NCBI RefSeq assembly: GCF_905475395.1
Contig: NC_058338.1
Coordinates: 38,745,435-38,809,434, forward strand
Reading direction: 5' to 3'
Length of the DNA stretch: 64,000 bases
From: Chrysoperla carnea
Taxonomy: Eukaryota; Arthropoda; Insecta; Neuroptera; Chrysopidae
The notes below the pieces were generated by a model. The model made no database searches. It was not told the DNA's origin and was given only the letters and a program-made list of their open reading frames with translations. The translations under genes were made by a program, and so were the position numbers. This document shows positions 39,670 through 40,888 of this stretch, piece by piece. Numbering within the stretch: position 1 is the first letter of the stretch; every line of letters begins with the position of its first letter.

Positions 39670-40888
39670 CTATTCGTAGATATCTTCTTTGTCTGCAACA
39701 TATCTCACTATATCTGCAGGTCTAACTAATTTCTCTGCATCTCCATCAGGAATTTCGAACCCTATTAAAATATAATGCTATTAGTTAGATATTAAATTAG
39801 GATTTTTTTTCGGAATTAAGCCCTTTCCTTTATCCCATACATTTTTTTTTGTCATCGATATCCAAAATATGCTAACCGACCCATGTTAATATGTTCTTTT
39901 GAAAATAGTTTCCATTCTAATCTCCATTTTGAAAATAGTTTTTGATCAATATCAATCGATTACACAAAAAAAATAGTGGGGAGTTTCGAAAAAAATACTT
40001 GAATTTAAATCTTACCAAATTCATCTTCCATTGCCATTATAACTTCTACATGATCTAATGAATCCAGACCAAGGTCATTAATAAAATGTGATTCCAATTT
40101 TAACTAAAAGAACGTTGGCATTATTTTACAAATTTAATAAATTTACTATATCGGAAAATCATGTAAATCTCTTATAACATTAAAAAATCAGGATTTTTTA
40201 TGTATTTAAACAATTTGAAAATTATAGAAATCAATTTTTGTAAAGCTTAATAATTGCTAAACTATTTAGATTTTAAACGCATGAAGGAAAAACATGATTT
40301 TCTTAATTTAAATTTAAGAGGCTTGCACTGAAACCAAAATTTACCTTTTCTGGATCAATTTTATCGTACAATTTAAGAACAAGTAATACTCTATCACGAA
40401 TTAGATCTAAAGATAAGGGATCCTTCGCACTGTAGGCTCGTGTGAAAGACAGGGCAAGCCTCTGGAAAAGAAAAATTCATAAAATTAATTATGTACCTCT
40501 TGTGCAGTTATTTTATCATAACTGGCGACAACTTTAAGCACTCTATCTTCAATTTGCTTTAAGGTTAACGTTTGAGAATCTGCTGTAGTAGTCGAGTATA
40601 ATTTTTGAAATTGCATCTAATAAATTTTAAGGTTAGGTATATGTTACATAAGTGTCTCAAAAAACTTATTCAAATTTATTATAAAATTCATTATTAAAAT
40701 TGTAAAATGTAATAATCAATTACCTCAGAAGGTTTTAAAAATGTTGGAACTAGTGAATTTGTACATAAATATCTTTGTTCTACTTTATGGATTTCTTTGG
40801 AGATAGCTGAACATGCCGGTGACCGCAAAATTATTGATGATTGCCTAATTAAACTATTAGGGCGAAATAATCTCACAAAAGATGTCAT
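39670..40888 (-). CDS. ND-ACP: Mitochondrial acyl carrier protein (NDUFAB1), with alternative exon 2
   Basis: Carries acyl chains in mitochondrial fatty-acid synthesis and is a subunit of respiratory complex I. Exons on the minus strand: 40888-40724 (55 codons, mitochondrial targeting peptide rich in Arg/Ser), then exon 2a (40616-40497) or 2b (40461-40345), then 40103-40016 and 39761-39670. Isoform A is 154 aa and isoform B 153 aa. Exon 3 encodes [18 protein letters not shown]; the serine of GLDSL (Ser110 in A) is the phosphopantetheine attachment site. The last exon encodes the [11 protein letters not shown] segment and ends DKEDIYE. Exons 2a and 2b are both phase 0, each encode the first helix of the carrier fold ([14 protein letters not shown] versus [14 protein letters not shown]), and would duplicate it if joined, so they are probably mutually exclusive. 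Drosophila mtacp1 is known to have such isoforms. Confidence 0.96.
40345..40461 (-). other. ND-ACP: ND-ACP alternative exon 2b
   Basis: 117-nt, 39-codon exon starting [17 protein letters not shown] and ending LYDKIDPEK. The acceptor (CTTTTCCAG) is stronger than that of 2a; the donor is AAG|GTAAAT. It lies only 35 bp downstream of exon 2a, too short for a normal intron, which would physically prevent 2a-2b joining and enforce exclusivity. Confidence 0.88.
40497..40616 (-). other. ND-ACP: ND-ACP alternative exon 2a
   Basis: 120-nt, 40-codon exon beginning [13 protein letters not shown] and ending in SYDKITAQE. The acceptor is TTATTAG and the donor GAG|GTACAT. The Thr/Ser-rich start probably holds the presequence cleavage region, and the second half is helix I of the carrier domain. 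Phase 0 at both ends, so it can be skipped or swapped without a frameshift. Confidence 0.85.

Follow-up and report, generated by a model that had tools for sequence, protein, structure and literature searches.

Whether two neighboring exons of one gene can enter the same transcript, or whether the use of one shuts out the other, is the question raised by a locus in Chrysoperla carnea that lies within a stretch of 64,000 nucleotides of contig NC_058338.1, here called the window. The minus strand of the window carries a four-exon gene for a mitochondrial acyl carrier protein (ACP) with two alternative second exons, referred to below as 2a and 2b. An initial annotation had described these as alternative, apparently mutually exclusive exons of a mitochondrial ACP gene, and the analysis supports that description; the exon pair is real, was correctly read and has already been described in other insects. 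It is very probable that the gene is the ortholog of Drosophila mtacp1 (CG9160) and that its tandem-duplicated second exons are mutually exclusive, with each transcript taking either 2a or 2b.

Layout of the gene and identity of its product

Exon 1 (40888-40724, on the minus strand like all positions of the gene given here) contains the start codon and the predicted presequence in 55 codons and ends in phase 0, as read from the sequence and the joined translation. It is followed by alternative exon 2a (40616-40497), whose 40 codons hold the end of the presequence and a diverged helix I, and by alternative exon 2b (40461-40345), whose 39 codons hold a RAY/S motif and the conserved helix I. Exon 3 (40103-40016), with the DSL serine motif, is common to both isoforms, and exon 4 (39761-39670) supplies the C-terminal part and the stop codon. 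Every intron of the gene is of the GT...AG type, and 2a and 2b are both open, preceded by AG, followed by GT and in phase 0 on both flanks. Between them lies a spacer of 35 nt (40496-40462) that starts with GTACAT, ends with TTTTCCAG and provides 2a with its GT donor and 2b with its AG acceptor, which is rich in pyrimidines. The shortest intron besides this spacer is 107 nt, the length of intron 1 in 2a transcripts (40617..40723). Two adjacent phase-0 exons separated by 35 bp are what the initial annotation had placed here, and its junction ends (40724, 40616, 40497, 40461, 40345 and 40103) are all correct.

In the joined translation, exons 1, 2a, 3 and 4 give a protein of 154 amino acids, and exons 1, 2b, 3 and 4 give one of 153. 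The reading frame is kept in all four combinations (2a, 2b, both or neither), which means that the frame offers no backstop against double inclusion. When the 2a frame is read on into the spacer, a TAA is reached after three codons, so that retention of the spacer would truncate the protein.

Both isoforms match the Pfam PP-binding domain (PF00550, cut-off 20.8 bits), at 44.5 bits with 2a and 40.3 bits with 2b, and the match covers the whole profile (1-67) in the 2a isoform and begins only at profile position 11 in the 2b isoform. As controls, the exon-skipped form scored 38.1 bits and the double-inclusion form 39.9 bits; since the skipped form matches too, Pfam says little about exon 2, and the match depends for the most part on exons 3 and 4. 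For both isoforms, 8ba0_T, presumably a Drosophila complex I chain, is the top match in the PDB (164.5 bits and E 1.6e-47 for 2b; 130.6 bits and E 4.2e-37 for 2a). Among PDB chains, those closest to the two isoforms belong to the 2b type, namely a single sequence found in six chains of the three entries 8ba0, 8esw and 8esz, and two chains of 8b9z, all four of these entries being presumably Drosophila complex I. No 2a-type chain was present among the matches listed (60 of 108).

Across the whole genome (337 contigs, 559 Mb), a Pfam scan found 15 PP-binding matches; none lay at the ACP gene, presumably owing to the shortness of its exons. When the genome was searched with the 2a isoform (E up to 0.1), three matches were obtained, all of them exons of this gene, which is the only predicted mitochondrial ACP locus found in the genome with that query. 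The same query, which includes exons 3 and 4, revealed no retrocopies in the species' own genome; a retrocopy of one mtacp1 mRNA is described in D. persimilis by Porcelli et al. 2007 (PMC2241641). Among viral contigs, 15 stretches matched the search pattern, and none encoded a relative. Clusters holding five and six of the 15 PP-binding matches lie on contig C3 (5.87-6.04 Mb) and contig C5 (51.99-52.10 Mb), respectively, in open frames of 326-395 amino acids that are perhaps expanded synthase-type genes.

Relationship of 2a and 2b and the presequence boundary

The likeness of the two exons was assessed by comparing all stop-free 24-residue peptides from the six frames of the window (n = 25,277) with the helix-I segments of four mitochondrial ACPs, with the score taken as the mean BLOSUM62 value and with the last two residues filled in for one of the reference segments. 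The peptide of 2b ranked first with a score of 95 and that of 2a second with 57.25, followed by 21.75 for third place, which bears out the earlier statement that the two exons encode alternative versions of the same helix. Measured against each other, the two helices share 12 of 24 residues, for a score of 52 that none of 100,000 shuffled versions of 2a attained against 2b (best shuffle, 35). Identity to the four references, one of which has its last two residues filled in, is 20, 20, 19 and 19 of 24 residues for 2b and 12, 13, 13 and 13 for 2a; helix I of 8ba0_T shares 20 of 24 residues with 2b and 12 of 24 with 2a, and 2a keeps 13 of 24 helix-I residues of the three mammalian ACPs.

At the level of DNA, the bases of 2a and 2b agree at only 53 of 117 nt, and over the 24 helix-I codons they agree at 12 first, 18 second and 13 third positions, as would be expected if the protein had been kept and not the DNA. 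On this comparison, 2a and 2b are old copies of one exon, still alike in protein and no longer so in DNA. When the PDB was searched with single exons, 2b found 8ba0_T at 9.8e-11, and 2a found ACPs with an E-value of 0.038 at best; these likenesses mark 2b as the conserved form and 2a as the copy that has diverged.

The alternative segment also bears on where the mature protein begins. A mitochondrial presequence is predicted from the composition of exon 1 and from the YS motif. In the 88-residue chain 7v2c_G, the D of (S)DAPPL is residue 2, which would place the start of the chain at the S of the RRYS motif in the 156-residue precursor, and the boundary in 8ba0_T reads RKY/SAKPPL. With the boundary at the RRYS serine, the alternative segment covers the end of the presequence together with helix I; the alignment of this motif to 2a and 2b, along with the start of 7v2c_G, agrees with the claim in the initial annotation that the variable part spans the junction of presequence and mature protein. 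An arginine three residues before the boundary helps presequence cleavage, and in 2a this arginine is a lysine.

Splice signals and the choice between the exons

Predicted pairing with U1 is weakest at the 2a donor (-5.7 kcal/mol) and stronger at the donors of exon 1 (-6.7), 2b (-6.8) and exon 3 (-8.0). The tract before 2b, with 76% pyrimidines and a run of 12, is the best among the four acceptors of the gene, and the tract before 2a has 59% pyrimidines and a longest run of 4. As a control, the acceptor of exon 4 was considered, on which both isoforms depend; with 53% pyrimidines and a longest run of 4 it is no better than that of 2a, and the weakness of the 2a acceptor is thus no sign that 2a is the minor form. 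Overall, the predicted splice signals lean to 2b. Competing pairings between the introns gave no signal, as 144, 288 and 145 of 300 shuffles were as good or better.

The spacer itself suggests how the choice might be enforced. A distance of about 50 nt from donor to branch point is given in PMC7969005 as the limit for simultaneous binding of U1 and U2, and the whole spacer falls below it at 35 nt, provided that the branch point of 2b lies within the spacer; the earlier remark that 35 nt is too short for an intron agrees with this limit. The literature search for a minimal intron length in insects found no relevant paper. In the proposed mechanism, U1 at the 2a donor and U2 at the 2b branch point could not share the spacer, one occupant would exclude the other, and the joining of 2a to 2b would be blocked for that reason. 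Each transcript would then hold exon 1, either 2a or 2b, and exons 3 and 4. The two mitochondrial ACPs produced in this way from one gene would have the serine-bearing part in common, and their differences would lie in helix I and in the final portion of the presequence. Double inclusion and skipping are both neutral to the frame, so exclusion would have to come from geometry or from a regulator and not from the decay of frame-shifted products; steric exclusion is the likely mechanism of exon choice, and the 35-nt spacer displays this probable physical basis very cleanly.

A comparable arrangement is described for exons 4a and 4b of OGDH (PMC7969005), where, likewise, the upstream donor is so close to the branch point that the two exons cannot both be included. 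The OGDH intron between the exons is 118-131 nt long in birds and mammals, with human branch points 25-41 nt from the donor, whereas the ACP spacer measures 35 nt in total. Alpha-tropomyosin and alpha-actinin appear in the reference list of the same article as cases of sterically enforced mutually exclusive exons. The terms "mtacp", "CG9160" and "acyl carrier" are absent from the main text of the papers examined on mutually exclusive exons.

Other accounts of the pair have to be weighed against this one. Were 2a a decaying or unused duplicate, with 2b alone spliced in Chrysoperla carnea, then the weakness of its donor, the poorest of the four, and its divergence from the common mitochondrial ACP sequence would both fit. 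The 40 codons of 2a are nevertheless open between an intact AG and GT, in helix I it shares half of its residues with 2b and 13 of 24 with three mammalian ACPs, and the isoform containing it, not the one with 2b, is matched over the whole PP-binding profile; other insects, moreover, are described as keeping both exons (PMC551531, PMC2241641), and disuse of 2a appears quite improbable. An in-frame ATG that opens 2a directly after the AG could point to an alternative first exon with its own promoter, but that AG is a usable acceptor in phase with exon 1, and a tandem duplicate pair with introns on both sides is what PMC551531 describes, which leaves a separate promoter highly improbable.

It is also conceivable that some transcripts include both exons and yield a protein of 193 amino acids with two copies of helix I, in which case splicing would not be mutually exclusive. 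The frame, kept in every combination, would permit such a product, and its PP-binding match is retained; a GT-AG intron of 35 nt would, however, be shorter than the roughly 50 nt that PMC7969005 gives as the lower limit between donor and branch point, and exclusive use is reported for orthologs (PMC551531), making double inclusion extremely improbable. If 2a and 2b are used exclusively of each other, as is preferred here, then 2b, with its better donor, better pyrimidine tract and conserved sequence, may be the default and the complex I form, and 2a may be a diverged second form with a putative special role; both assignments are more weakly indicated than the exclusion itself.

Precedents, possible functions and the surroundings of the gene

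The alternative exons of Drosophila mtacp1 were reportedly first described by Ragone et al. in 1999. Mutually exclusive tandem exons of the gene in D. melanogaster, D. pseudoobscura, Anopheles and Apis are described by Tripoli et al. 2005 (PMC551531), which bears out the two-isoform precedent that the initial annotation had cited for Drosophila, and this article and that of Porcelli et al. (PMC2241641) report the exon pair from Anopheles, Aedes, Apis, Bombyx and Tribolium. According to these two sources, the precedent in Diptera and Apis is backed by transcripts and the pair is kept in all insects studied. The deep conservation among insects suggested in the initial annotation therefore stands but was already in print in 2005 and 2007, and its novelty is not supported. 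Chrysoperla carnea adds one more genome with a predicted splice-encoded choice of mitochondrial ACP to those of flies, mosquitoes, the honeybee, the silkworm and a beetle.

In both Drosophila and Chrysoperla carnea, a single mitochondrial ACP gene contains a tandem pair of homologous exons that occupy the same position in the protein, and in the fly their use is described as mutually exclusive (PMC551531). One apparent difference is that the flanking introns are printed as phase 1 in PMC551531 and are read as phase 0 in Chrysoperla carnea. The isoforms may differ in length as well. The serine of the 2b-type 8ba0_T is at position 108 by alignment count and that of the isoform B construct, overexpressed in S2 cells according to PMC6895606, is numbered 99, which would make the second fly isoform perhaps nine residues shorter, whereas the gap in Chrysoperla carnea is one residue. 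The word "splice" does not occur in the main texts of the Drosophila complex I papers, whose examined passages say nothing about splice forms of ACP, and no distinct tasks for the two mtacp1 isoforms were found in the portions of the literature examined.

Two mitochondrial ACP forms within one species are also found in Yarrowia complex I, as ACPM1 and ACPM2. There, unlike the case described here, they are two separate chains of differing sequence, 6gcs_O and 6gcs_Q, which are presumably Yarrowia ACPs from two genes. A speculative and rather doubtful extension is that exon choice divides one ACP gene among tasks for which some other eukaryotes have separate ACPs. On this view 2b, the form modeled in the Drosophila structures, would serve complex I, and 2a, whose helix I allows the protein to be matched along the entire PP-binding profile, would act elsewhere in the mitochondrion, for example in fatty acid and lipoate synthesis or in iron-sulfur cluster assembly, with a balance that depends on tissue or stage. 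What the isoform pair means for function is the aspect that merits further work, and the compact gene suits such work.

Several other features were observed in the window. A tandem repeat (38300-38856) with a 306-bp unit, 1.8 copies and 84% matches lies just downstream of the ACP gene. On the plus strand, head-to-head with the ACP gene, a two-exon frame of 63 residues (41199-41290 and 41910-42009) resembles MOZART2, with a score of 22.6 bits for Pfam PF12926, just below the cut-off of 23.3, and E-values of 0.0022-0.0072 for MZT2A/2B chains in the PDB. From about 44881 to 58148, the minus strand has a series of open frames that contain EGF domains and LDL-receptor repeats of classes A and B; together these frames may form a single large gene for a receptor of the lipoprotein or vitellogenin receptor type. 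A plus-strand frame at 20439-22007 encodes a predicted protein with leucine-rich repeats and immunoglobulin domains (LRR_8, I-set), and the proline-rich frame that follows it at 22330-23286, which has no Pfam match, is perhaps its tail. The open frame at 31660-32217 on the same strand contains a SPRY domain (65.7 bits).
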